64,000 nucleotides of DNA, taken from assembly GCA_015351705.1 (NCBI GenBank), contig JADIIM010000032.1:42501-106500 (forward strand), written 5' to 3'. The notes under the pieces are model-generated. The model was not told the DNA's origin and ran no database searches. It worked only from the letters and a program-made list of their open reading frames with translations. The translations under genes and the position numbers were made by a program. This DNA comes from Aeromicrobium sp. Lineage in GTDB: Bacteria; Actinomycetota; Coriobacteriia; Anaerosomatales; Anaerosomataceae. Below, piece by piece: positions 46,540 through 58,701 of the stretch; position 1 is the first letter of the stretch, and every line of letters begins with the position of its first letter.

Positions 46540-47766
46540 TCAGCTGACGATACGGAACGCCGAGCCGACCTGGCTCGACTCCCGCGCGATGTGCGCGAGC
46601 TGCTCGGCCGCCCCTGCCACCTGGCGGCTTCCCGCGGCGGTCTGCTGGGCGACCGCAGCCACTTCGCGCATCGCTTTGACGACCTGCTCGGTCGCGCTCT
46701 TCTGCTGCTGTGTGGCGGCCGAGATCTCCTTTGCCGCCACAGTGGTCTGCTCGATGGTCTCGAGGATCTGCTCGAGGCTGTCCCCCGTCACGTGCGCCAG
46801 GTCCACGCCGCCCTGCACCTGCTTGAGCTCCTGCTCGGTGGAGAGCACGAGGTCGTTGGCGGCACCCTGGATCTCGGTCATGATGCTCTCGATCTCGCTC
46901 GTGGAGTCGACGACCGACTCGGCGAGTTTGCGAATCTCGATGGCGACCACCGAGAAGCCCTTGCCCGCCTCACCGGCACGTGCGGCCTCGATGGCAGCGT
47001 TGAGCGCGAGGATCTTCGTCTGGTCGGCGATGCTGTTGATGATCGCGGTGACCTGGCCGATCTGCTGGCTGCGCTCGCCGAGCTGCAGGATCTTGTTCGC
47101 CGATGCCTGTGTCCGCGAGCGAATCTGCTCCATGGCGTCCAGCGTGTTCATGACCGCCTGCTGGCCGGACTCGGCGCTGCCGAGCGAGGTCTCGGCCATC
47201 CGGACGACCTGGTTGGCGTTGTCTGCGATCTGACGGTAGGTCGCCGCCAGCTCCTCCATGGTCGCGGTGGTCTCACTGATCGACGCCGCTTGCTCGGCAG
47301 CGCCGGAGGCCTGCTGCTCGGTTGCCGAGAGGATCTCCGACGAGGCCCCTGACAGGCGGTTCGACGACTCCTGCGTCTGCGTGATCAGATAGACGACCAG
47401 GTCGAGCATCTGATTGTACGAGCGCGCGAGCACGCCGAACTCGTCTGCCGAGTCGAGCTCGACTTTGTGCCCGATCTCGCCATCACAGGCGCGCCTGACG
47501 CTGTCGGCCACGTGCGTGAGCGGCGCCATCATCCGGCGACCGACCACACCGTAGATGTACAGGAACACGGCCAGCAGCGCCACGAACGTCCCGACGACGA
47601 TCGCGGCATCCACCAGGAGCCCGGGCTGCCCTTCGAGGTAGCGGCCGAACACGACCCAGGCCACCAGGAGCTGGACCACGTTGACCAGTGCAACGAGTCC
47701 CAGCACCACGAGCGAGTACTTGACGAGGAAGCTGCTTCGAATCTTGCTGGTGAGTCTTCTGATCAT
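46540..47766 (-). CDS. Methyl-accepting chemotaxis protein without an extracytoplasmic sensor domain
   Basis: 408-aa receptor. Two membrane helices (about 15-38 and 50-72) are joined by a loop of only about a dozen residues, then HAMP ([14 protein letters not shown]) and a signalling domain with the conserved hairpin tip [20 protein letters not shown]. Glu/Gln-rich helices ([17 protein letters not shown] and [11 protein letters not shown]) offer methylation sites for CheR and CheB. With no ligand domain it must respond to membrane state or to partner proteins. FrzCD, the receptor of Myxococcus Frz, also lacks a periplasmic sensor. Confidence 0.92.
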
Positions 47767-47778
47767 CAGACCTCTCTC

Positions 47779-48339
47779 CTAGCCATTCTCGCCGATGGGC
47801 TCAAGTACCTTGTCGAGATTCGCGATGCCGATCAGCCGCGCATCGATGTAGACGGACCCGGCGATGTACTCGCCCTGCGTCTTGTCCAGGGTGGACAACG
47901 GCGGCTCCAGGGAGTCCACCGGGACATCCACGATGTCGCCGATCTCATCGACGACGATCGCGCTCACGCACGATTCGTTGGCGACGATGACGGCCGACGG
48001 CAGCACGCCGTCAAGGTCCACCTCCGTTCGACTCGGCACGCGCATCAGCGTTGCGATGTCGGTCACCGAGACGATCTCCCCGCGCACGTTTATGACGCCG
48101 AGGATGAAGTCGGGAACGCGCGGGATCCGGGTCACCTCGTACTCGTTGAGGATCTCACGCACGCGGTCGATCCCCACGGCGTACCACTCCTCGCCGAGGC
48201 GGAACAGAAGGAGGCCCACCGTCTCGACCGCACTCGCCTCCTCGCCCACCTGCGCAAGCGACTCAGCACGCTCCTTGAGCACCTCTCGCATGTGCTGGGC
48301 CTGGAGCATGGCGAGCATCGCGGGCTGCTCGGGGGTCAT
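47779..48339 (-). CDS. cheW: CheW-like adaptor 1
   Basis: 186 aa. An N-terminal helix of about 35 residues precedes the CheW domain (LLLFRLGEEWYAVGIDRVREIL, GVINVRGEIVSVTDI). It joins receptor to CheA. The start overlaps the preceding cheW stop by 4 bases (ATGA). Confidence 0.92.
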   Translation of the reverse strand: MTPEQPAMLAMLQAQHMREVLKERAESLAQVGEEASAVETVGLLLFRLGEEWYAVGIDRVREILNEYEVTRIPRVPDFILGVINVRGEIVSVTDIATLMRVPSRTEVDLDGVLPSAVIVANESCVSAIVVDEIGDIVDVPVDSLEPPLSTLDKTQGEYIAGSVYIDARLIGIANLDKVLEPIGENG

Positions 48340-48974
48340 GAGGCCTCACCTCCCGCCTCTTCGGCGACCTCGAGTGCAGCGTCGGGCACGAGGCGGTCCA
48401 GGTCGAGCAGCATGACCATGCCCTGCGGGAGCCGGCACACACCGATCATGCGGTCGGCGAGGGAGTAGAGCCGCGACGCGGCCTGGATGCAGTCGGACGG
48501 GACGTCCACGACATCCTCGACAGCGTCGACTATCAGACAGACGAGCCGGCCATGCGCCCGACACATGACCATGGGCGTCTCGAGGCCGTAGTCTCGATGC
48601 GGCATCCCCACGAGTGTCCTGAGGTCGATCGCCGGCACGACGCTGCCGCGGATGTCGAGCATGCCGACCAGCGCCGGTGCCGAATCCGGGAGCGGCATGA
48701 GCTCGACGATCTGCTGGATCTCCTGCACCTGCTCGATCGGCAGGCCGAAGAGCTGCTCGTCGAGCCGGAAGGTCAGTGCACGCGACACCGTGGCGACATC
48801 GACGTCCGGCGCATCCGGTCCCTCCACGACAGGCGCGCCGGACTCCGCGCCCTCCTGGACGTCGCCGACCGACGCCGAGCCGGGGGCCTCGACCCCCTGC
48901 TCCGTCGGCTTGACCGCCTGCTTCTCATCGGGCGCCGGCACGTCCGGCTCGGCTGTCGCTCTCTTGCGGGGCAC
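48336..48974 (-). CDS. CheW-like adaptor 2 with acidic N-terminal extension
   Basis: 212 aa. About 60 residues of Pro/Glu/Ala-rich low-complexity sequence come before the CheW domain (LTFRLDEQLFGLPIEQVQEI, GMLDIRGSVVPAIDLRTL). Two CheW proteins in one operon suggest separate docking of receptor and kinase, as in Frz and Chp systems. GTG start, 3 bases after the PilB-like stop. Confidence 0.9.
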   Translation of the reverse strand: MPRKRATAEPDVPAPDEKQAVKPTEQGVEAPGSASVGDVQEGAESGAPVVEGPDAPDVDVATVSRALTFRLDEQLFGLPIEQVQEIQQIVELMPLPDSAPALVGMLDIRGSVVPAIDLRTLVGMPHRDYGLETPMVMCRAHGRLVCLIVDAVEDVVDVPSDCIQAASRLYSLADRMIGVCRLPQGMVMLLDLDRLVPDAALEVAEEAGGEAS

Positions 48975-48977
48975 CCG

Positions 48978-50822
48978 TCACTCCGTTCGGTCGCTGTAAC
49001 GCACCACTCGGTCAAGTTCCTCGGCACTGACGTCGCCGGACTTGACCCTTGCGAGACCGGCGACCACGAGCGGACGCATCCCGGCCGCAAGCGCAGCGCC
49101 CGCGATCTCCTCACGACCGCCGCCTCTGCCGACGGCCGAGCGCACGGGCTCGGTGAACGGCAACACCTCGTGGATCGCGGTGGCGCCGCGGAATCCGGAC
49201 TTCCCGCAGTTGGGGCAACCGCTGCCGCCGCGGTCGATGAGACCCGCGGGGGCGCCGGGGATGCGCGCTGCGAGGGCGCCGTCTGTCTCCACCGAGCAGT
49301 TCGGGCAGTTCAGACGCACAAGGCGCTGGCCCACACCCAGTGTCAGCGCGGCAGCCAGACTGTGGGGCTCGGCCCCCAGCTCGAGCATCCGGTGTACACC
49401 GGATGCGATGTCGGCCGCCGGGAATGTGGCCACAACGAGCTTGCCCAGGCCCGCGGCCTCGACGGCCAGATGCACGTCCTCGACCGAGCGCAGCCCGTCG
49501 ATGGCGATGACGTCGGTGTCCTGTCGCATGCCGGCGGCGATGTAGGCGGCCGGCGACGGGCCTCCCGGCTCAAGCATGACCTGCGCGACGGCGGGGATCT
49601 CGTGTTCGATCGACTGCTCCACTGAGTACACGGTCTTGCCAGCCGAGGCAGCATGGGCGAGCAGTGCGTAGTAGGTCGTGCTCGAGCCGCCTGCCACCGG
49701 AGCGCACACGAGAAGGATCCCCCGGCCCCGCTCCACCATCGCCTTGAGGGCCCGGGCCTCTGCCTCGGACATCCCGAGTTCTTCGAGGCCGCGCGGCCGC
49801 TCGCGGAAGGCGGCGAGTGAGATCACGAGCCGCTGACCGGCGATCGTCGGCACGACCGAGGTGGTGAGGACCAGGTCCCGCTCGGCGATACGAGCGCGCA
49901 TCCGGCCGAGCGCCGGACGCGTCGCCGGCACACCTCCGAGCCGCGCGTACTGCTTCAGGCCGTCGACGAGCGGCGCCTGCAGCGACAGCGGCGCGCTCGC
50001 GATCTTCTCGAGCGCACCCTTCACGCGGTACACCAGGAAGAAGTCGTCTTTGTATGGGAGGAGGTGGATACGCGTCGCACCGCGCGCGACCGCGTCCTCT
50101 AGGATGCCCTGGACGAGCACGGCGACCTTGCGAGAGTCGGCTACCGCGAGCACGTCGAGATCTATCCCGGCCCCGGCGGCCCCCGCAGGCGCAGCGGCTG
50201 CCATCTCCTCAAGGGCGACAGAGCCCTCCACCGCGACCGCGGGCCCGGGCTCTGAGGCGGGCATCACCGGTACGGCCGGAGTGGACTCGGCGACCTCCTC
50301 GAAGAAGTCGGACGCGGCCACCTCGGGGGCGGGCTCGGGCGCTGGCGCAGCCTGCGGTGCGGCTGTCGCGCCTCCGGCCTGCTCGGCACCGTAGTACTGG
50401 TCCAGTGCGGCTGCGAAGGACGGGCCGTCGGCAAGAACGGGCTCCACCTCGAGTCCGAGCTCTCCGGCGAGCGCATCTAAGCCGAACACGTCCATGGGAT
50501 CGCCCACGGCGACCGTGAGCATGCCTTCGATCTCGAACAGCGGTAACACCCTGCGCCCGCGTGCGAGGGCTGCCGGGATGAGCGCAAGGGCATCGTCTTC
50601 CGGAGCGTAGCTCGCGAGATCGACCTGCGGGACACCCATCTCGTGCTCGAGGACCGAGACGATGTCGGAGGGGCCGACCAGGTCACGCTCCACCAGCACC
50701 ACGCCGAGCGAGACGCCGCGCGAGGCAGCCGCCTCGCGCACGCTTGCGACCTGCTCGGCCGTCACCAGGCCCGCGCCGACCAGGCTCTCGAGCACGCGGT
50801 CTGTAAGCGACGTCGCCGGCAT
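48978..50822 (-). CDS. PilB/GspE-like protein with degenerate ATPase motifs
   Basis: 614 aa, with the layout of a type IV pilus or type II secretion ATPase: N-terminal MshEN-type domain (VLESLVGAGLVTAEQ, SLGVVLVERDLVG), Ala/Pro linker, N2 domain (RKVAVLVQGILEDAVARGATRIHL), RecA-like domain and C-terminal zinc site (CPNC...CPNC, GFRGATAIHEVLPF). The catalytic motifs are lost. The usual GPTGSGKTTTLYA is APVAGGSSTTYYA here, with Ser380 in place of the Walker A Lys. The usual GEIRD reads DGLRS, losing the catalytic Glu. It therefore probably cannot hydrolyse ATP and is more likely a structural or nucleotide/c-di-GMP-sensing partner. It sits inside the che operon, away from any pilus genes. Confidence 0.85.
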   Translation of the reverse strand: MPATSLTDRVLESLVGAGLVTAEQVASVREAAASRGVSLGVVLVERDLVGPSDIVSVLEHEMGVPQVDLASYAPEDDALALIPAALARGRRVLPLFEIEGMLTVAVGDPMDVFGLDALAGELGLEVEPVLADGPSFAAALDQYYGAEQAGGATAAPQAAPAPEPAPEVAASDFFEEVAESTPAVPVMPASEPGPAVAVEGSVALEEMAAAAPAGAAGAGIDLDVLAVADSRKVAVLVQGILEDAVARGATRIHLLPYKDDFFLVYRVKGALEKIASAPLSLQAPLVDGLKQYARLGGVPATRPALGRMRARIAERDLVLTTSVVPTIAGQRLVISLAAFRERPRGLEELGMSEAEARALKAMVERGRGILLVCAPVAGGSSTTYYALLAHAASAGKTVYSVEQSIEHEIPAVAQVMLEPGGPSPAAYIAAGMRQDTDVIAIDGLRSVEDVHLAVEAAGLGKLVVATFPAADIASGVHRMLELGAEPHSLAAALTLGVGQRLVRLNCPNCSVETDGALAARIPGAPAGLIDRGGSGCPNCGKSGFRGATAIHEVLPFTEPVRSAVGRGGGREEIAGAALAAGMRPLVVAGLARVKSGDVSAEELDRVVRYSDRTE

Positions 50823-50827
50823 GACGA

Positions 50828-51208
50828 TTAGCCCTGGACCTTCGCCAGCTCCTCGGCCACCGCGCCGAGAAGGGTGTCCGGATCGACGGGCTTCGTCAGG
50901 TACTGGTTGGCGCCGGTGCGGATACCGGTCGCCATCGCCTGCTCCTCGGTCTTAGCGGTCAGCATGATGATCGGTATGGACTTGTAGTTCTGGTCGAACT
51001 TGAGCAAACGGCACACGCGATAGCCGTCCAGCTTAGGAAGCATCACGTCGAGCAGGATGAGGTCGGGCTTCTCCGCACGGGCGGTCTCGAGCGCTTCCGC
51101 GCCATCGACGGCCGTGATGACCTCGTAGCCCCCCGCCTCAAGGATGGCCTTGATCATCTCGAGGATGGTGGGGCTGTCATCAACCGCTAGTATTCGAGCG
51201 CCTGCCAT
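50828..51208 (-). CDS. Single-domain response regulator (CheY/PilH-like)
   Basis: 126-aa receiver with acidic pocket AVDDS, phospho-Asp in LLDVMLPKLDG, Thr in IIMLTAKT and Lys in YLTKPVD. It has no output domain. It is probably phosphorylated by CheA at 44155-46506. The VMLPKLDGY region resembles PilG/PilH and FrzZ-type receivers as much as CheY. The ATG follows GGGAGGGAG. Confidence 0.92.
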   Translation of the reverse strand: MAGARILAVDDSPTILEMIKAILEAGGYEVITAVDGAEALETARAEKPDLILLDVMLPKLDGYRVCRLLKFDQNYKSIPIIMLTAKTEEQAMATGIRTGANQYLTKPVDPDTLLGAVAEELAKVQG

Positions 51209-51230
51209 ACCGTGGTCTCCCTCCTGCCTC

Positions 51231-51262
51231 CCGCCCGACCGCGCAGCATCACCCGCGGGCGG
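51231..51262 (-). other. Hairpin between cheR and the response regulator
   Basis: CCGCCCG and CGGGCGG arms around an 18-nt loop on the minus strand, in the widest gap of the operon. It could be a partial attenuator or an mRNA end that lowers upstream or downstream yield. It has no T-tract. Confidence 0.35.
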
Positions 51263-51283
51263 GGCCGGCCCTCACCCGGGACG

Positions 51284-52831
51284 CTATCCCGCTTCGGCCG
51301 CCTTTCGACACTCTATCAGAGAACGTTCACACGTCTTGACCAGCAGATCCGCCTGGAACCCGCCGGCGAACTCCATCCAAGCGCCGTTGGGGCTCTTGTA
51401 CATCGCCCTGAGCGCGTTCTCGTACTCTTTGGCTGCAGCCGCCCACTTGCGCTGCGCCTTGTAGATGTTCGCGAGGTTGAGGTGCGCAAGCGCGAAATCG
51501 GCGTCGATGTAGATGGTCTTCTTGAACTCACTCACCGCTCGCAGCGCATCACCCTGCCGCTGGTAGATGATGCCGAGGATGTAGCGAGCCGCCGGAAGCA
51601 GCGGGTTGATCGCGAGTGCGCGCTGACACGCCGCAAGCGCGTCATCGTATTCGCCACTATCGGCATGAACATATGCCGATAGCAGGTGCGCATCCGCGTT
51701 GTTGGGATCCTCGACGAGAATGCGCTCCACGAGCTCGATCACCTCGGCAGGGCGCCCTTCCTTCAGACGTGTCCTCGCCTGCTCGAACATCCCGCCCACA
51801 CCCTCGTCCTCGGGGGTCTCGGGCGCCGGCGTCGCGGCTGCCGCGGCGCGTGCCTCGGCGGCGGCGGCCCGGGCCGCGCGCTTGGCCGCTCGCTCGGCGG
51901 GATCGGTGCTGGCGGGAGCCGGTCGGGGCGCTGGCGACGTCTGCGGTCGCGCGGCCTGGGCGCCGAACGAGAACAGGCGCCGGCTCTTGGGCTTGCGATA
52001 CAGGAACACCCCGCCCATGTCGATCGCCTCGAAGTCTTCGCTGATCGACGTCAGCGTCTCCGAGTGGCCGATGAAGAGATACCCGCCCTCGTTCAGGCTG
52101 TCGAAGAAGTTGCGGACCACTCGCCGTGTCGACTCCAGGCGGAAGTAGATGGTCACGTTCCGGCAGAAGATGACGTCCCAGTTGCCCATGAGCGACAGCG
52201 GGTACGGCTCCTTGATCAGATTGTGGTACCCGAAGTCCACGAGCGATCGGACGCGGTCGTTGATCCGGTACGCGCCGCTCGGCGTCGCCTCGTAGAAGCG
52301 TGACACCACGTCCGGCGGGACGTTCATCATCGATCGCTTGCCGTACACGCCGGCCTTTGCGTGCGCGAGTGCCTTCGTGGAGACGTCGGTGCCCAGCACC
52401 TGCGGCCTCCACCCCAGTCCCTCGACGCCCATGTCGAGCAACGACATGGACACAGAATAGGGCTCCTCCCCGGTCGAACAGCCCGCCGACCAGATACGCA
52501 GGTTGCGCGACGATGCCGGCTTGTCGGCCATGATCTCGGGCAGCACGCGCTCCCGAAGCGCCTCGAACTGCTGCGGGAACCGGAAGAAGCTCGTCTCGTT
52601 GATGGTCACCAGGTTGAGCAGTTCGTTGAACTCGTGGTCGTCGCGCTCCAGCGCTCCGTAGTAGTCGTTGAGGCTCGTATAGCCGAGTCTCGTCGCCCGC
52701 GTGACGAGGGAGATGCGCAGTGAGTCGAGTTTGGACTCCTCGAGGTAGATGCCCGAGTGCCGGTGCAGGAGGTCGCGGAAGCGACGGAACTCCTCCAGGC
52801 TGAGGTCCTTCGCAAGATGCTCGTTCAGCAT
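51284..52831 (-). CDS. cheR: CheR methyltransferase fused to TPR repeats
   Basis: 515 aa. The N-terminal CheR domain (helical part then SAM fold; NETSFFRFP, IWSAGCSTGEEPYS, DVIFCRNVTIYF) methylates receptor glutamates. An Ala/Pro linker of about 60 residues is followed by at least three TPR repeats (EVIELVERILVEDPNNADAH, YDDALAACQRALAINPLLP, AVSEFKKTIYIDADFALAH). CheR-TPR fusions occur in FrzF, WspC and related systems, where the TPRs tune which sites are methylated. It lies 22 bases after the PATAN gene. Confidence 0.94.
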   Translation of the reverse strand: MLNEHLAKDLSLEEFRRFRDLLHRHSGIYLEESKLDSLRISLVTRATRLGYTSLNDYYGALERDDHEFNELLNLVTINETSFFRFPQQFEALRERVLPEIMADKPASSRNLRIWSAGCSTGEEPYSVSMSLLDMGVEGLGWRPQVLGTDVSTKALAHAKAGVYGKRSMMNVPPDVVSRFYEATPSGAYRINDRVRSLVDFGYHNLIKEPYPLSLMGNWDVIFCRNVTIYFRLESTRRVVRNFFDSLNEGGYLFIGHSETLTSISEDFEAIDMGGVFLYRKPKSRRLFSFGAQAARPQTSPAPRPAPASTDPAERAAKRAARAAAAEARAAAAATPAPETPEDEGVGGMFEQARTRLKEGRPAEVIELVERILVEDPNNADAHLLSAYVHADSGEYDDALAACQRALAINPLLPAARYILGIIYQRQGDALRAVSEFKKTIYIDADFALAHLNLANIYKAQRKWAAAAKEYENALRAMYKSPNGAWMEFAGGFQADLLVKTCERSLIECRKAAEAG

Positions 52832-52853
52832 GGCGTACCCGATCCTGCGCCGC

Positions 52854-53591
52854 TCACGCGCCGGCCCCGCCGTCGATCCGCTCGATCAACCCCGCAGCGT
52901 ACATGCCGTAGAGGATCTTCGCCGTCTCGAAGTCGTTGTAGCCGGTGAGCTCCGCGAGCTCGGTCACGGACCGGCCGCCATGCAGATAGCACAAGAGCAT
53001 CCACTCGCGCGGCTTGAGATGGATCTCCATCGACTTGTCACCCGGAGCGCCGGCCATCACGAACTCGGTGTCCATCGTCGGGATCTTCTGACGGATCCGG
53101 TCCCACAGCTCAAGCCTGCGCGACGCCTCCATGATGATGTTCTCCACCGACACCGAGATGCCGATGTCCTCATCGTCACACGTCTCATCGGGCTCGAAGC
53201 GTAGCTCGCCCTCGTCCCAACGGAACAGGTCGAAGAGCGTGTCGTTGATCTGCTCCTGGATGAACGCCTCCAGCACGCGTCCGTCGAGATAGCCCTCGTC
53301 GACGAGGATCTGGCCGAGCCGACGGCCCGCCTTCTCCTTCTTCTGGATCTTCTGGAGGCCGAGCGCCTGGCGGAGCTGCTTCTCCGAGATCACGCCCGCC
53401 TTGACCAGACGCCGCCCGAGTGACTCACGATGCCAGTTGGAGCTGGCGAAGAAGACGCGGCCCTTCTTGAAGCAGACCTTGCCCTGGGCGTTGGGGGACT
53501 CCAGATGCAGCGTGCCCGTCTTCCTGCCCGACGCGAGCAGGCGGAACATGTCCGCTATCGAGAAATCCTTGAGGTTGCCCTCGAGAGCCAC
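52854..53591 (-). CDS. PATAN/DUF4388 protein with tandem MshEN-like c-di-GMP motifs
   Basis: About 245 aa, first gene of the chemosensory operon. The N-terminal PATAN/DUF4388 domain (LEGNLKDFSIADMFRLLASG, RKTGTLHLES) is followed by two 24-residue repeats: SLGRRLVKAGVISEKQLRQA with LGLQ (residues 57-80) and RLGQILVDEGYLDGRVLEAF with IQEQ (91-114). Both fit the published MshEN pattern RLGxx-hydrophobic-pair-xxG...L...L..Q almost completely. A C-terminal winged-helix-like segment follows (LKPREWMLLCYLHGGRSVTEL). The start at GTG 53591 is 8 bases after AGGAG; the GTG at 53600 is too close to that site. The likely role is a c-di-GMP-responsive scaffold for the array; this is inference. Confidence 0.82.
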   Translation of the reverse strand: MALEGNLKDFSIADMFRLLASGRKTGTLHLESPNAQGKVCFKKGRVFFASSNWHRESLGRRLVKAGVISEKQLRQALGLQKIQKKEKAGRRLGQILVDEGYLDGRVLEAFIQEQINDTLFDLFRWDEGELRFEPDETCDDEDIGISVSVENIIMEASRRLELWDRIRQKIPTMDTEFVMAGAPGDKSMEIHLKPREWMLLCYLHGGRSVTELAELTGYNDFETAKILYGMYAAGLIERIDGGAGA

Positions 53592-53767
53592 GTAGCGCAC
53601 TCCTGTGGTCGACGCCGATGCGCAGAACGCGCGAACGCAGCCACCCGGGATGGCCGCTGGTCAATCGTAGCACGGGCGGCGGCACTCAGGCAGTGGCTCC
53701 GGCGAGACGCCAGAGCTCTCACGACCCTTCCGACGAGCGGTGAATCAGCCACAGCTTGTGAAAGCAC

Positions 53768-53796
53768 TTGCTTAACTCCTTAAGTTGCCTTACTCT
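53768..53796 (+). promoter_or_regulatory. Promoter of the arsR-dsrE-tusA cluster
   Basis: TTGCTT, 17-bp spacer, TACTCT. A small palindrome (CTTAA-CTCC-TTAAG) fills part of the spacer. The rest of 53601-53837 holds no gene. Confidence 0.6.
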
Positions 53797-53806
53797 CTCT
53801 TCAACA

Positions 53807-53826
53807 ACATTCGCATATTCGAATGT
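53807..53826 (+). promoter_or_regulatory. Palindromic operator for the ArsR-type repressor
   Basis: ACATTCG-CATATT-CGAATGT, a perfect 7+7 inverted repeat placed at about +1 to +20, 11 bases before the regulator start. Size and position fit ArsR/SmtB operators. Confidence 0.7.
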
Positions 53827-53837
53827 GAGGAGCACCC

Positions 53838-54170
53838 GTGGACGATCAGCAGTTCTACTGCCTCCACTCCGAGCTGTGCAAGACGCTCGCGAACGCGAAG
53901 CGTCAGATGATCCTCGGCTCACTGCGTGACACCGAGCTCACCGTGAGCGACCTTCACGCGCGGACGGGCATCCCCCAGGCCACCCTGTCACAGCACCTCG
54001 CCATCCTCCGCGGCGCCGGCGTGGTGCGTGCCAGGCGCGCGGGCACCCACGTCTACTACTCCATCACCAACCCCAAGATCATCCAGGCGTTCGATCTGAT
54101 CACCGAGGTGATGAGAGAGACGCTTGAGGCGCGCCGGGAGACCGTGGACGAGGCGACCGAGAGCGGGTAG
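53838..54170 (+). CDS. ArsR/SmtB-family transcriptional regulator
   Basis: 110-aa winged-helix repressor. The recognition helix is in GIPQATLSQHLAILRGAGVV, with the wing RRAGTHVYYSI. It carries cysteines at 8 and 14 (YCLHSELCK). The ELCVCD metal motif of classic ArsR sensors is absent. A sulfur-cluster context suggests it may sense a sulfur species or thiol redox state through these cysteines, but the pair is not where SqrR/BigR have theirs. The GTG start has GAGGAG upstream. It probably represses itself and the downstream genes through the palindrome at 53807-53826. Confidence 0.88.
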   Translation: MDDQQFYCLHSELCKTLANAKRQMILGSLRDTELTVSDLHARTGIPQATLSQHLAILRGAGVVRARRAGTHVYYSITNPKIIQAFDLITEVMRETLEARRETVDEATESG

Positions 54171-54219
54171 CCGGTCGCCTGAAGGAGCAGATGGTCGGTA
54201 ACCGACGAAGGAGGACGCA

Positions 54220-54702
54220 GTGGGAGACGAAGGCAAGAAGAGCCTGGCGATGGTGGTGATGAGCGGCGACATGGACAAGCTCTTCGGCGCGTTCATCATC
54301 GCCAACGGCGCGGCCGCGATGGGGATGGACGTCACGATGTTCTTCACCTTCTGGGGCCTGCGCGCGATCAAGAAGGACGTGCGCACCGGGAAGACGTTCT
54401 TCGGCAAGATGCTCGGCACGATGTACGGCGGAGACATCACCAAGTCCAACCCGTCCAAGTTCAGCTTCGGCGGTATGGGCCGGTGGATGTTCGGCAAGAT
54501 GATGGGCAAACACAACGTCCAGAAGCTGAACGAGATGCGTGACCTCGCCGTGCAGCTCGGTGTGAACATGTACGGCTGCCAGATGTCGATGGACGTCATG
54601 GAGATCCCGCAGGACGCGTTCATCGATGGCGTCAAGGAGCCGGTGGGCGTGGGCTTCTTCCTCCTCAAAGCGCAGGAAGCCGACGTCCAGCTCTTCATCT
54701 AG
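54220..54702 (+). CDS. DsrE-family (DsrE2-like) sulfur-carrier protein
   Basis: 160 aa, DsrE/DsrF/DrsE2-like fold. KKSLAMVVMSGDMDKLFGAF is the first strand and helix, and the conserved Cys is in MYGCQMSMDVM (Cys120). In known systems this cysteine passes persulfide sulfur between TusA and an enzyme. A Gly/Phe/Met-rich middle (about 60-95) is typical of the DsrE2 form, which is often membrane-associated. GTG start behind GAAGGAGG. It lies between the regulator and tusA. Confidence 0.87.
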   Translation: MGDEGKKSLAMVVMSGDMDKLFGAFIIANGAAAMGMDVTMFFTFWGLRAIKKDVRTGKTFFGKMLGTMYGGDITKSNPSKFSFGGMGRWMFGKMMGKHNVQKLNEMRDLAVQLGVNMYGCQMSMDVMEIPQDAFIDGVKEPVGVGFFLLKAQEADVQLFI

Positions 54703-54791
54703 AGGCGGCATGGCCCGCGGCCGGCCCCGGCCGCGGTCAGGTACGGACCGCACGCAGCCGGGCGTGTGGCCACACGACGAAAGGAACCACC

Positions 54792-55034
54792 ATGTCAGAC
54801 GACGTCAAGGTCGATCTCGAGCTCGATCTCAAGGGCCTCCTCTGCCCGCTTCCGATGGTCAAGGTGAGCCAGAACATCACCAACGTCCCGGTCGGCGGTG
54901 TCATCCGCGCGGTCGCGACCGACCCCGGCGCGATGGCTGATATCCCCGCATGGGCGCAGTCCACCGGCAACGAGGTCCTCTCGGCCGAGAAGGAAGGCGC
55001 CGAGTTCGTCTTCCTCGTGAAGCGCCTGAAGTAG
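54792..55034 (+). CDS. tusA: TusA-family sulfur-carrier protein
   Basis: 80 aa. The sulfur-carrying motif is LLCPLPMVK with Cys18, and the rest is the usual two-layer fold (GGVIRAVATDPGAMADIPAW). TusA proteins receive persulfide from desulfurases or rhodaneses and hand it to DsrE-type partners. It is adjacent to a DsrE-like gene, which supports a relay. Confidence 0.92.
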   Translation: MSDDVKVDLELDLKGLLCPLPMVKVSQNITNVPVGGVIRAVATDPGAMADIPAWAQSTGNEVLSAEKEGAEFVFLVKRLK

Positions 55035-55055
55035 CGAGAGGACCGGGTAGACACC

Positions 55056-55775
55056 ATGGACACCTACCTCTGGATCACCTCGGTCGCCGGGGTGTACGTG
55101 GCGGGCGTCGTCTTCGTGGCCGGGATCGGCTGGCGCATCTACGAGTGGGCCACCACGCCGAAGTCCCCCGTGCGGCTGGGGATGTTCCCGAAGCCAGCGA
55201 CCACAGGCGGCCGCGTCGCCAAGATGCTCACCGATACGCTCGTTGCCCCGCACGCTGCCCGCATCGAACCGCGCATGTGGTTCTTCGCGATGATGTTCCA
55301 CGTGGCAGCGCTCGCGGCGTTCGTCGGCCACCTGCGCATCGTGCAGGAGTATCCGCTCCTCCCCGACCTGCTCGGCGCCGAGGGCATGAACGCCTTCGCG
55401 GCGTGGGCCGGTGGGATCGCGGGCACGCTCATGATGATCGCGGTGCTCTACTGGATCGGGCGGCGCACCTTCGGGCCGTTCAAGAACCTATCGGTGCCCG
55501 AAGACTACCTGCTGCTCGCACTCCTTCTCGGCGTCATCATCATGGGCAACCACATGCGGTTCTTCGGCCACGTGCACGCCGCCGAGTACCGTGAGTGGTT
55601 CCAGAGCCTGCTCGCGTTCCGCCCGCACGTACCCGACGCCATCAGCAACAGCAACGTGGGTTGGTCGCTCGGAACGCACATGCTCTTCGTGAACGCGCTG
55701 CTGATCTACTTCCCGTTCAGCAAGCTCGTGCACACCATCGGCTCATTCGCCGCGAACTACGCGAGGAGTGAATGA
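55056..55775 (+). CDS. NarI/DsrM/HdrE-like membrane cytochrome b
   Basis: 239-aa integral membrane protein with about five or six helices. His residues are in helix pairs (His82 and His92 in MMFHVAALAAFVGHL; more in GNHMRFFGHVH and LGTHMLFV), fitting heme b ligation as in NarI-type subunits. It would move electrons between menaquinone and the iron-sulfur protein encoded next, whose start overlaps this stop (ATGA). Confidence 0.85.
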   Translation: MDTYLWITSVAGVYVAGVVFVAGIGWRIYEWATTPKSPVRLGMFPKPATTGGRVAKMLTDTLVAPHAARIEPRMWFFAMMFHVAALAAFVGHLRIVQEYPLLPDLLGAEGMNAFAAWAGGIAGTLMMIAVLYWIGRRTFGPFKNLSVPEDYLLLALLLGVIIMGNHMRFFGHVHAAEYREWFQSLLAFRPHVPDAISNSNVGWSLGTHMLFVNALLIYFPFSKLVHTIGSFAANYARSE

Positions 55776-57070
55776 CGATGGAGGCACAGCAGCTGACCAC
55801 ACTCACGGGCGTCATCGATAAGAAGATGAACCGCCAGCTCAAGCAGTACATGGACATCTGCGCGCGCTGTGCGATCTGCAAGGACGCGTGCCACCAGTAC
55901 GTGGGCACCGGGGACTTCACGTATCTCCCCGCCCGCCGCGCCGAGCTCATCCGCCAGATCTACAAGAAGTACTTCGACAAGGCGGGGCGGTTCGTGCCGG
56001 CGCTGTACGAGGCGCGGGACCCGGACGAGAACCTGCTCGATGAGCTCTATGAGTCCACGTATGCGTGCACGGGCTGCCGCCGCTGCATGTACTACTGCCC
56101 GTTCTCCATCGACACCGCCTGGATCCTCTCGGTGGCCAAGGCGATCCTGATCGCCGCTGGCCGCGGGAACGAGATGCTCGGCCAGCTCGCCGACGCCGCC
56201 ATCTTCAAGGGCGACAACGCCGCGATGTTCGAGGGCGTCATGCTGAGCGGTTTCGAAGACATCTCCGAGGAGGTCCGCGCGATCACGGGCAACCCCGAGC
56301 ACCAGGTGCACGTGAACAAGGAGGGCGCCGACATCCTGTACGTGGCGCTCGCCGGTGCGCACTCCATCCGCCCGGCGGCCGTCATCTTCGAGGAGGCCGG
56401 CGAGAGCTGGACCATCTCGATGTTCGAGGCCGCCAACTACGGCTACTTCTATGGCGATGCCGAGAAGGCCCGGCTGATCACGAAGCGCTACATCGACGAG
56501 GCCAAGCGCCTCGGCGTGAAGGAGATCGTGGTACCCGAGTGCGGGCACGCCTATCGCGTTGCCGAGATCTTCTACGAGGCCTGGTCCGGTGAGCCGATGC
56601 CGTTCAAGGTGAGCCACATCCTCGAGAAGGTCGATGAGTACATCAAAGCCGGCCGCATCACCGTCGACCGCGACAAGATCGATGGCACGGTCACCTACCA
56701 CGACCCGTGCCAGATCGGGCGCAACGGCGGTGTTTTCGACGCACCGCGCGACATCGTACGCGCGGTCACCAGCCGTTTCGTCGAGCTCACGCCCAACCGC
56801 GAGCAGCAGTGGTGCTGCGGCGGTGGCGGCGGGATCGTGGCCATGGAGGAGTTCAAGGACGTCCGCCTGAAGTCAGGCGGCAAGAAGGTCGAGCAACTCA
56901 AGGCGAGCGGGGCAAGCGTGCTCGCGTGCCCGTGTGAGAACTGCAGGCTCCAGATCGAGGAACTCAACGAGGTGCACGGCCTGGGGCTCGAGGTCTGGCA
57001 GGTGATCGACCTGGTTGTGGCGGCGATGCCGTTCAAGGCCACTCCGGAGGCGGATGCGGCTACCATGTAG
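55772..57070 (+). CDS. DsrK/HdrD-like iron-sulfur protein
   Basis: 432 aa. Two [4Fe-4S] sites are at Cys30-33-36-40 and Cys99-102-105-109. Two CCG-type regions follow: HDPCQIG (Cys313) and WCCGGGGG (Cys348-349) with CPCENC (Cys386, 388, 391). In HdrD and DsrK such regions bind the unusual [4Fe-4S] cluster that splits a disulfide. With the overlapping cytochrome gene it forms a DsrMK/HdrED-type membrane module. The physiological disulfide is unknown; nearby DsrE and TusA suggest a sulfur-carrier persulfide or trisulfide. Confidence 0.9.
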   Translation: MTMEAQQLTTLTGVIDKKMNRQLKQYMDICARCAICKDACHQYVGTGDFTYLPARRAELIRQIYKKYFDKAGRFVPALYEARDPDENLLDELYESTYACTGCRRCMYYCPFSIDTAWILSVAKAILIAAGRGNEMLGQLADAAIFKGDNAAMFEGVMLSGFEDISEEVRAITGNPEHQVHVNKEGADILYVALAGAHSIRPAAVIFEEAGESWTISMFEAANYGYFYGDAEKARLITKRYIDEAKRLGVKEIVVPECGHAYRVAEIFYEAWSGEPMPFKVSHILEKVDEYIKAGRITVDRDKIDGTVTYHDPCQIGRNGGVFDAPRDIVRAVTSRFVELTPNREQQWCCGGGGGIVAMEEFKDVRLKSGGKKVEQLKASGASVLACPCENCRLQIEELNEVHGLGLEVWQVIDLVVAAMPFKATPEADAATM

Positions 57071-57072
57071 CC

Positions 57073-58701
57073 ATGGACTCCCACCGGAGACGACCCGCGC
57101 GACGCCGGCCTGTCCGGCAGACCCGCGTACCGGGGGGCGCGCTGAGCGCCCCCCGGCCGCATCGCGCGCCACGAGGATCCCGGAGGCTGCCGCTTCCCGT
57201 GGTGGTGCTTGCGGCGGTCGCGGTAGGAAGCCTCGTCCTGTTCCGTGCGCTCACCGGGTCTCCTTCTGTTGCCGAGTCGCCGGAGACGCCGACGGGCGAG
57301 TTGCTGAATGCGCAGCACGCGGAGAACGTCACCCTCGCCTACCCCACCTATCTCGGCGGACCGCGCCGCGAGAGCGGCGGCAGGCCACCAGGCCCCGACT
57401 CGCTCGATCTGGTGTGGAAGGTCGAGATCGGCGCGGGCACGACCGCACGGGTGAGCGACGGCCGACTCGTGTACTGGTCGGGCACCGGTTGGACCGGTCA
57501 GCCGACGCTCACATACGACGGCGGCCGCCCGTGGCTCGTCATCGGCGGCTACGATCACGGACTGCGCCGCATCGCCGCCGACACGGGAGAGGTGGCGTGG
57601 CGTACCGCGCTCGACGACGTGATCAAAGGCACCAACACCGTGTACTACGAGCCCACCCGGCCCCAGGGCGACCGACTCGTGGTGGTCACCGGGTCGCGAC
57701 GCGGCAACGGCCTCGCACTCGGCGATCCGGCGATCGCCCCGCTGCGGGCGTTCGCTTTCTCAAGCGGCGAGGAGATCTGGCGCCTGCCGGTGCCCCGCAC
57801 GGCATGCTACAGCCAGGACGTGGACGCTAGTCCGCTGCGCATCGACGGCCACCTGATCGTCGCTCTCGAGCCCGGATACGTGCTCGCGCTCGACACCGCG
57901 CACCTCGTCCCCGGGCCGGGAGGGCATCCGATGCCCTCGGTCGTGACGACCTCACCGTTGCTCTACGCCCCGGAAGACGTGCTGACGCGCGCCGGGAGAC
58001 AGGGCAGCAACGTCGTCCTCGAAGGGTCGCCCGCGCTGCTCGGCGACCGCATCTACATCGCATCGAGCGCCGGGCACGTCTACGGACTGAACCGCTCGAC
58101 ACTCGCGATCGAGTGGGACTTCGTGGCCGGCGGCGACCTGGACAGCACCGCCGTGGTTACCCCCGACGGGCGACTGCTCGTCGGTATGGAGCGCCAGTAT
58201 GTGGATCACGGTGGTGTGTACATGCTCGATCCCGGAAGGACACCTGAAGACGCTGTGGTGTGGTTCTTCCCCACCAAGGACGCAGGCATCGGTGAGTGGG
58301 GCGGCGGCGTGGTCGGCTCGGTGGCGATCCATCCCTCAGCGCCGCTCGCGGCGTTCTGCAGCGTTGACGGCAACGTCTACGTCGTGCGCACTGACGTTAC
58401 CGACGGCGAGAGCCCCGATCCCAGCAGCAGTGCCACCCTGCCCCGGCCGGTCCTCGTGTTCCAGGACGACATCGGCGGCAGCATCTCGACGCCCGTGTTC
58501 GTGGGCGATCGGATGGTGGCCGCCGGACTCGACCGCACGGTCCACCTGTACCGTGTCATCGCCGAGGGCAGCGACTATGAACTGGAGGAGATGGACACGT
58601 TCATCGCCGAGGGGCCGTTCGAGTCCACACCGCTCGTCTGGGACGGGCGCGTATACATCGGCTGCCGCGACGGCTACCTCTACTGCCTCGGCTCGCGGTG
58701 A
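57073..58701 (+). CDS. Membrane-anchored PQQ-like beta-propeller protein
   Basis: 542 aa. An Arg/Pro-rich cytoplasmic N-terminus is followed by a single helix at about 40-60 (PVVVLAAVAVGSLVLFRAL), then WD/PQQ-like repeats (DTGEVAWRT, SSGEEIWRLPV, STLAIEWDF, DGYLYCLGS), so the propeller faces outside. No cofactor ligand set is evident; it is probably a structural or sensing propeller. It begins 2 bases after the HdrD-like stop and could be co-transcribed, though its function need not be shared. Confidence 0.8.
   Translation: MDSHRRRPARRRPVRQTRVPGGALSAPRPHRAPRGSRRLPLPVVVLAAVAVGSLVLFRALTGSPSVAESPETPTGELLNAQHAENVTLAYPTYLGGPRRESGGRPPGPDSLDLVWKVEIGAGTTARVSDGRLVYWSGTGWTGQPTLTYDGGRPWLVIGGYDHGLRRIAADTGEVAWRTALDDVIKGTNTVYYEPTRPQGDRLVVVTGSRRGNGLALGDPAIAPLRAFAFSSGEEIWRLPVPRTACYSQDVDASPLRIDGHLIVALEPGYVLALDTAHLVPGPGGHPMPSVVTTSPLLYAPEDVLTRAGRQGSNVVLEGSPALLGDRIYIASSAGHVYGLNRSTLAIEWDFVAGGDLDSTAVVTPDGRLLVGMERQYVDHGGVYMLDPGRTPEDAVVWFFPTKDAGIGEWGGGVVGSVAIHPSAPLAAFCSVDGNVYVVRTDVTDGESPDPSSSATLPRPVLVFQDDIGGSISTPVFVGDRMVAAGLDRTVHLYRVIAEGSDYELEEMDTFIAEGPFESTPLVWDGRVYIGCRDGYLYCLGSR

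Follow-up and report, generated by a model that had tools for sequence, protein, structure and literature searches.

A conserved ArsR-DsrE-TusA-cytochrome b-DsrK-like operon of Anaerosomatales: a putative quinone-linked reductase, or reversed oxidase, of carrier-bound sulfane sulfur

Introduction

The window studied in this work is a stretch of 64,000 nucleotides from an Aeromicrobium sp. genome of the family Anaerosomataceae (assembly GCA_015351705.1, contig JADIIM010000032.1, positions 42,501 to 106,500), in which genes for two sulfur carriers, DsrE and TusA, stand before genes for a membrane cytochrome b and a DsrK-like iron-sulfur protein. A pair of the latter kind is known from DsrMK(JOP), the menaquinol:DsrC-trisulfide module, which raises the question of what such a pair acts on, and in which direction, where DsrC is missing. 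From the operon and its relatives, we infer that the sulfane sulfur bound to TusA and DsrE is reduced, or in the reverse direction oxidised, by a quinone-linked enzyme. A sequence-only reading had already recognized a reduced redox loop in which persulfide carriers are joined to a membrane DsrMK-like pair, and this part stands; it missed the conservation across phyla, the operon's own operator and the fused NADH-linked analogue, which are now the strongest evidence.

The operon and its conservation

The five packed genes claimed earlier were all found as open reading frames on the + strand between 53838 and 57070. The start claimed for the operon, 53768, lies 5' of the ArsR start codon, in a stretch that carries an operator-like palindrome. 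The features are as follows (aa, amino acids).

53809-53824, + strand: operator-like palindrome ATTCGCATATTCGAAT, fitting ATTC-N8-GAAT
53838-54170, + strand: ArsR/SmtB-family regulator, 110 aa, GTG start, Cys8 and Cys14 (PF01022, E=3e-12)
54220-54702, + strand: DsrE-family (PF13686) sulfur carrier, 160 aa, GTG start, Cys120 (PF13686, E=2e-45)
54792-55034, + strand: TusA-family sulfur carrier, 80 aa, CPxP motif with Cys18 (PF01206, E=8e-20, above the cut-off)
55056-55775, + strand: NarI/DsrM-like diheme cytochrome b membrane subunit, 239 aa (PF02665, E=2e-17)
55772-57070, + strand: DsrK-like catalytic subunit, 432 aa, two [4Fe-4S] sites and one CCG site

The family of every operon protein was confirmed by Pfam and NCBIfam models. 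The gaps between ArsR and DsrE, DsrE and TusA, and TusA and the cytochrome are 49, 89 and 21 base pairs (bp), respectively, and the cytochrome b and DsrK-like genes overlap by 4 bp. A scan of the locus for promoters and terminators gave nothing convincing.

A scan of 84,980 species genomes yielded 47 named loci with a DsrK-like gene. The order DsrE-TusA-cytochrome-DsrK is present in 45 of them and all five genes in 43; the genes are never rearranged and never lie on differing strands, and one of the two exceptions to the four-gene order is a locus that ends at a contig edge. The carriers belong to Coriobacteriia, Ca. Humimicrobium and other Actinomycetota, Dehalococcoidia (Chloroflexota) and one member of Desulfobacterales (Desulfobacterota), so the synteny comparison in relatives that had been proposed extends the gene order to at least three phyla. 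Within the class, a DsrK-like match (E<=1e-40) was obtained in 46 of the 199 sampled genomes, five of which are outside the order and have distant matches (32-36% identity), and the four-gene order is kept in all 30 class loci that were fetched (29 relatives and the window's own). This recurrence across phyla, together with the invariant ligands described below, bears out the view that the operon is more than a chance arrangement.

In the flank comparison, no conserved neighbour gene beyond the five was found outside the window's own family. Further partner genes were rejected, as unrelated genes flank the operon there (Zip, DtxR/FeoA, ABC transporters, RidA, Fe-ADH, TfoX, abhydrolase); a rhodanese gene adjoins the operon in Ca. 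Humimicrobium only. Because the flanks outside the window's family are unrelated, the block itself is the unit, and the five genes form a conserved unit.

The single Desulfobacterales genome has two copies of the four-gene core, the second of which is more divergent and sits behind a MarR-like regulator gene (MarR-DsrE-TusA-cytochrome-DsrK, L156:3421-6950); the same genome also has DsrAB, DsrC, DsrMKJOP and DsrK relatives of the Tmc/Hmc type. A mobile origin of the operon was rejected: DsrE relatives on plasmids show <60% identity, and of the two examined among the ten listed, one proved to be a CoADR fusion and the other a distinct cluster of DsrE, TusA and rhodanese genes. No match to a phage family was found.

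One further gene follows the operon closely:

57073-58701, + strand: BamB/PQQ-like beta-propeller with one N-terminal membrane helix (Pfam)

Its start lies 2 bases past the DsrK-like stop codon. It was ruled out as a core component, since no more than 5 of the 47 loci have it behind the DsrK-like gene, and is probably a lineage-specific passenger. On the other side, the - strand of the window carries CheR-TPR, response regulator, GspE-type ATPase and DUF4388 genes (47000-53600), which are conserved in the family and replaced in other families.

The membrane cytochrome b and the DsrK-like subunit

The membrane subunit had been called a NarI-like cytochrome, and the PF02665 match and four conserved histidines agree with this. 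His82, His92, His208 and His226 are invariant in 22 of 22 sequences, with pair spacings of 10 and 18, which we take to be those of the NarI heme ligands. Moreover, the profile of the cytochrome aligns with NarI of known structure over the heme-ligand region. Against the DsrM model, the protein scores 85 bits, far below the cut-off of 300.

The best family match of the DsrK-like protein is DsrK, at 300.3 bits, which is likewise below the curated cut-off (400). Its [4Fe-4S] ligands are C30/33/36/40 and C99/102/105/109, arranged in Cx2Cx2Cx3C-type motifs; these eight cysteines are invariant across phyla, and those of the CCG site are kept in 21-22 of 22 sequences. The protein had been described as DsrK/HdrD-like with two CCG regions. 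The C-terminal half indeed has the fold of two CCG domains, as its AlphaFold model (mean pLDDT 67, thus of moderate confidence) matches HdrB and LutA over ~250-280 columns. At the level of motifs, however, the cluster motif is complete in just one of the domains, the second (C313, C348-C349, C388 and C391), whereas in the first the ECGHA motif (C257) alone remains, likewise in true DsrK, TmcB and HmcF. HdrB and HdrD have two complete CCG motifs, and it is DsrK, not HdrD, that matches best at the family level. A sequence search found no solved DsrK structure.

The operon shares the combination of a cytochrome b with a CCG-type subunit carrying two iron-sulfur sites with HdrDE, TmcBC and HmcEF. 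Its CCG site ends in CENC, so that the HdrB-type CxxC is kept as in TmcB and HmcF, whereas the true DsrKs compared here end in CAID or CALD. In the tree, the module sequences group with the second Desulfobacterales copy (support 98/96), apart from TmcB, HmcF and the DsrK of DsrMKJOP, a grouping to which the usual caution about long branches applies. Unlike Tmc and Hmc, which include multiheme cytochromes c, the operon pairs this separate clade with sulfur carriers. With DsrMK(JOP) it has in common the diheme NarI-like cytochrome and the cytoplasmic subunit with two [4Fe-4S] sites and a CCG site; it differs in its scores below both curated cut-offs, the CENC end, the separate clade, the lack of DsrC and DsrAB and the linkage to DsrE and TusA.

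Some observations on individual loci were also made. Large-genome Coriobacteriia of another order (L130, L131, L133 and L134) have two DsrK-type genes ~17 kb apart, one of which shows the CALD motif of true DsrK and lies near a DsrM-like gene. Between the window and G016 (L003), the carriers and DsrK are 92-95% identical and cytochrome b 72%, so the membrane subunit evolves much faster. In G045 (L028:1431-2610), and also in L077, the DsrK-like gene lies in two frames near the C-terminus, which is either a frameshift or an assembly error of the metagenome-assembled genome. Pyrrolysine or read-through in the DsrK-like genes of relatives was rejected, as the apparent single TAG is merely the natural stop just past the aligned end.

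Absence of DsrC and DsrAB from carrier genomes

The genome to which the window belongs comprises 2.07 Mb and is 97% complete, and many of its close relatives are labelled Coriobacteriia or Anaerosomatales. Genome-wide statements in this work rest on family searches only. DsrC (PF04358) is absent from this genome and from 27 of 28 carrier genomes, and NIR_SIR/DsrAB is absent from it and from 21 of 22 carriers; the sole match in both cases is the Desulfobacterales, and the controls (E. coli for DsrC) were positive. The sequence-only reading had allowed for a full Dsr or Sox system elsewhere in the genome; the genome-wide search for such a system covered DsrC and NIR_SIR/DsrAB, neither of which was found there.

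A relic or partial DsrMK pathway, whose DsrC and DsrAB were lost or were missed in draft genomes, would explain why DsrM and DsrK are the best-scoring families, and Chloroflexi DsrM proteins without DsrAB have been noted earlier (PMC10504309). However, the absence is systematic and includes genomes that are >95% complete, the DsrK-like protein forms a clade separate from true DsrK with CENC instead of CAID, and the genes are under strong purifying conservation across phyla. We regard such a relic as highly improbable; with DsrC lacking from 27 of 28 carriers and DsrAB from 21 of 22, the operon is not an incomplete Dsr pathway. The Chloroflexi DsrM proteins may themselves belong to the present module, which is a conjecture. 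As DsrC and DsrAB are absent from nearly all carriers, a reductase of this type would need another thiol substrate, for which TusA and DsrE are the conserved candidates.

The search for Psr/Phs genes, also suggested earlier, found no such molybdoenzyme in the genome: the sole molybdopterin oxidoreductase is formate-dehydrogenase-like (FdnG-like; contig C14, L032; L120:7770-10646), has one in-frame TGA and is probably a selenocysteine formate dehydrogenase. The corresponding rhodanese search gave one gene. Menaquinone is plausible because menA is present; the futalosine pathway (MqnA/D) is absent from the genome, and a UbiA-family search alone is uninformative, as it gives matches everywhere. 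Contig C33 (L115:3249-4160) carries a heme O synthase gene (CtaB/CyoE, above the cut-off) beside a coproporphyrinogen-oxidase-like radical SAM gene. This is a surprise for a lineage that is described as an obligate anaerobe, and it hints at a heme-copper oxidase.

The sulfur carriers and their fused analogues

TusA Cys18 and DsrE Cys120, named earlier as the carrier residues, are each the only cysteine of the protein and are invariant in 21 of 21 module sequences across phyla. TusA has the TusA fold with the CPxP motif. DsrE belongs to PF13686, scoring 84 bits against the DsrE2 model NF047629 (cut-off 210 bits), shows no clear membrane helix, and its Cys120 aligns with the cysteine of the solved homologue 3pnx. 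Sulfur transfer between TusA and DsrE has been demonstrated biochemically in other systems (PMC13293266; PMC4175335).

TusA and a DsrE-superfamily protein also occur together in the YTD cluster (yedE-tusA-dsrEFH type II), but the operon and its conserved flanks have no YedE, DsrF or DsrH, and the operon brings a redox complex of its own. A single YedE was found in the genome; it is of the selenium type (TIGR04112, above the cut-off) and adjoins a second TusA on contig C37 (L119:1954-3972), which probably serves selenium metabolism, judging by this neighbourhood.

The best independent clue for the mechanism is provided by fusion proteins. In Peptoclostridium, EAL2_RS12500 is an 822-aa pyridine-nucleotide reductase-rhodanese protein tailed by TusA-DsrE(PF13686), directly behind an ArsR gene. 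The same architecture is seen in Bacteroides fragilis BF638R_0572, which is controlled by the MarR autorepressor BmoR (PMC6158253), and in Pelobacter Pcar_0429, a proposed S0 reductase (PMC3543383). With NADH as the electron donor, purified NPSR enzymes, which contain these reductase and rhodanese domains, reduce both persulfides and polysulfide (PMC7969121). The fusions and the operon thus share the same TusA and PF13686 DsrE relay (45% identity for DsrE, 35% for TusA) and an adjoining ArsR or MarR regulator. They differ in the redox part, which is a soluble FAD/NAD(P)H reductase in the NPSR/CoADR fusions and a membrane heme b/Fe-S pair, without FAD/NAD(P)H or rhodanese domain, in the operon.

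The fusions also bear on the possibility that the substrate reduced by the cytochrome-DsrK pair is a small molecule, either a disulfide or persulfide (e.g., of CoA) or a thiosulfonate, and that TusA and DsrE only remove sulfur for biosynthesis or disposal. HdrDE and CoADR-type enzymes work on small thiols, CoA-disulfide reductase domains form part of the fused homologues, and Metallosphaera DsrE3A and TusA bind thiosulfate (PMC4175335). On the other hand, the general biosynthetic role of TusA is not tied to the operon. In 45 of 47 loci, the DsrE and TusA genes come ahead of those for the reductase, and the two carriers show higher conservation than the cytochrome does. This suggests a direct partnership between carriers and reductase, and we consider a small-molecule substrate to be quite unlikely.

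The ArsR regulator and its operator

The palindrome ATTCGCATATTCGAAT ends <15 bases 5' of the ArsR start codon. It is an exact match to ATTC-N8-GAAT and is unique in the window even when one mismatch is allowed, where a shuffled window is expected to give ~1.3 such matches. The pattern ATTCG-N6-CGAAT, with at most one of ten positions off, was found upstream of ArsR in 22 of 30 Coriobacteriia regions against 0.18 expected from shuffles, a count of related sequences and not of 22 independent events. A stricter pattern was present in seven of ten genomes searched, in six of these as a single copy upstream of the operon, and G016 has one extra copy; a reversed control pattern gave 0 matches in the ten genomes. 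Since the copy upstream of the operon is nearly unique, the motif suggests a regulator with one target.

The ArsR protein scores 79 bits with the HTH_metalloreg model (cut-off 55), but only 61.8 bits with the BigR model (cut-off 155). It resembles the SqrR/BigR/SoxR repressors in fold and operator: the reported SqrR site is ATTC-N8-GAAT (PMC9774250), which the palindrome fits, although ArsR operators in general are of such a type. Most module ArsRs also have two cysteines. Cys14 is present without exception (19 of 19 sequences, across phyla), whereas the second is Cys8 in Coriobacteriia and two other actinobacteria, and belongs to a GEAC motif near the C-terminus in Dehalococcoidia. On these features, a sulfane-sulfur switch by ArsR is plausible.

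Proposed mechanism and direction of electron flow

We hypothesize that the operon is a stand-alone unit for the redox turnover of sulfane sulfur, in which the persulfide of TusA/DsrE would be reduced to H2S by quinol, a reading that we see as evenly poised between right and wrong. ArsR would repress the operon and be released once sulfane sulfur modifies its cysteines. TusA Cys18 and DsrE Cys120 would be loaded with sulfane sulfur from polysulfide, a low-molecular-weight persulfide or rhodanese. From a menaquinol-type carrier, electrons would pass via the two hemes of cytochrome b and then the pair of [4Fe-4S] clusters, and would reach the DsrK-like subunit's non-cubane CCG cluster, where the carrier persulfide, or an inter-carrier disulfide, would be reduced, so that H2S leaves and the thiols are restored. 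TusA and DsrE would then play the substrate role that DsrC plays for DsrMK, and the complex would be the membrane quinol-linked counterpart of the soluble NADH-dependent CoADR/NPSR-rhodanese-TusA-DsrE enzymes, serving respiration or polysulfide detoxification.

The direction is the main weakness of this favoured reading, and several points weigh against it. Judging by standard potentials, menaquinol is ill suited to reduce a persulfide. The study on Pelobacter states that reverse electron transport is required if menaquinol is to reduce S0 (PMC3543383), and quinones were undetected in Anaerosoma tenue and Parvivirga hydrogeniphila (PMC9686372). In addition, the ArsR cysteines are not at the SqrR/BigR positions, no biochemistry or expression data on the operon were found, and no carrier organism with a known sulfur phenotype was identified by name. 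Given a weak menaquinol donor, the complex may use a lower-potential quinone, the proton gradient or a more oxidised substrate such as a trisulfide or thiosulfonate, or it may work in the oxidase mode.

In the latter mode, carrier thiols or persulfides would be oxidised at the CCG site and electrons would enter the quinone pool, as is thought for DsrMK(JOP) in sulfur oxidisers. The reaction is downhill to menaquinone by the potentials, yet the carriers are anaerobic lineages that are not known to oxidise sulfur. DsrMK operates in both directions (PMC10504309), and sulfur oxidation is a classical setting for TusA and DsrE (PMC4175335; PMC13293266), but the fused analogues are NAD(P)H-linked reductases, and DsrAB and DsrC, the candidates for processing the product that the searches covered, are absent. 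The oxidative mode therefore appears fairly unlikely.

Significance

Every part of the operon belongs to a known family, and DsrMK already provides an example of the reaction type, membrane electron transfer to protein-bound sulfur. In the non-subscription literature searched, no description of this combination of genes, of the missing DsrC or of the cross-phylum conservation was found. As a whole, we tentatively propose, with somewhat more doubt than confidence, a DsrC-independent quinone-linked sulfane-sulfur reductase/oxidase that occurs in Actinomycetota, Chloroflexota and Desulfobacterota. Its DsrMK/HdrDE-type membrane complex would act directly on persulfidated TusA and/or DsrE, and a single-target sulfane-sulfur repressor would control it.

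Cultured Anaerosomatales oxidise H2/formate; Anaerosoma tenue reduces S0 and thiosulfate, and Parvivirga hydrogeniphila, an Fe(III) reducer, does not reduce any sulfur compound (PMC9686372). The S0/thiosulfate respiration of Anaerosoma tenue is now tentatively attributed to a formate-dehydrogenase-like enzyme. If our reading is true, the operon would provide a route for sulfane-sulfur respiration or detoxification in deep-subsurface lineages (Anaerosomatales and Dehalococcoidia) without Dsr or a clear sulfur reductase, and TusA/DsrE would be a third kind of substrate carrier, besides DsrC and CoM/CoB, for the membrane thiol redox complexes of the DsrMK/HdrDE type. Matches to DsrM and DsrK in such genomes are no evidence for a sulfite-reduction pathway, and it is the DsrE-TusA-cytochrome-DsrK neighbourhood that distinguishes the two.

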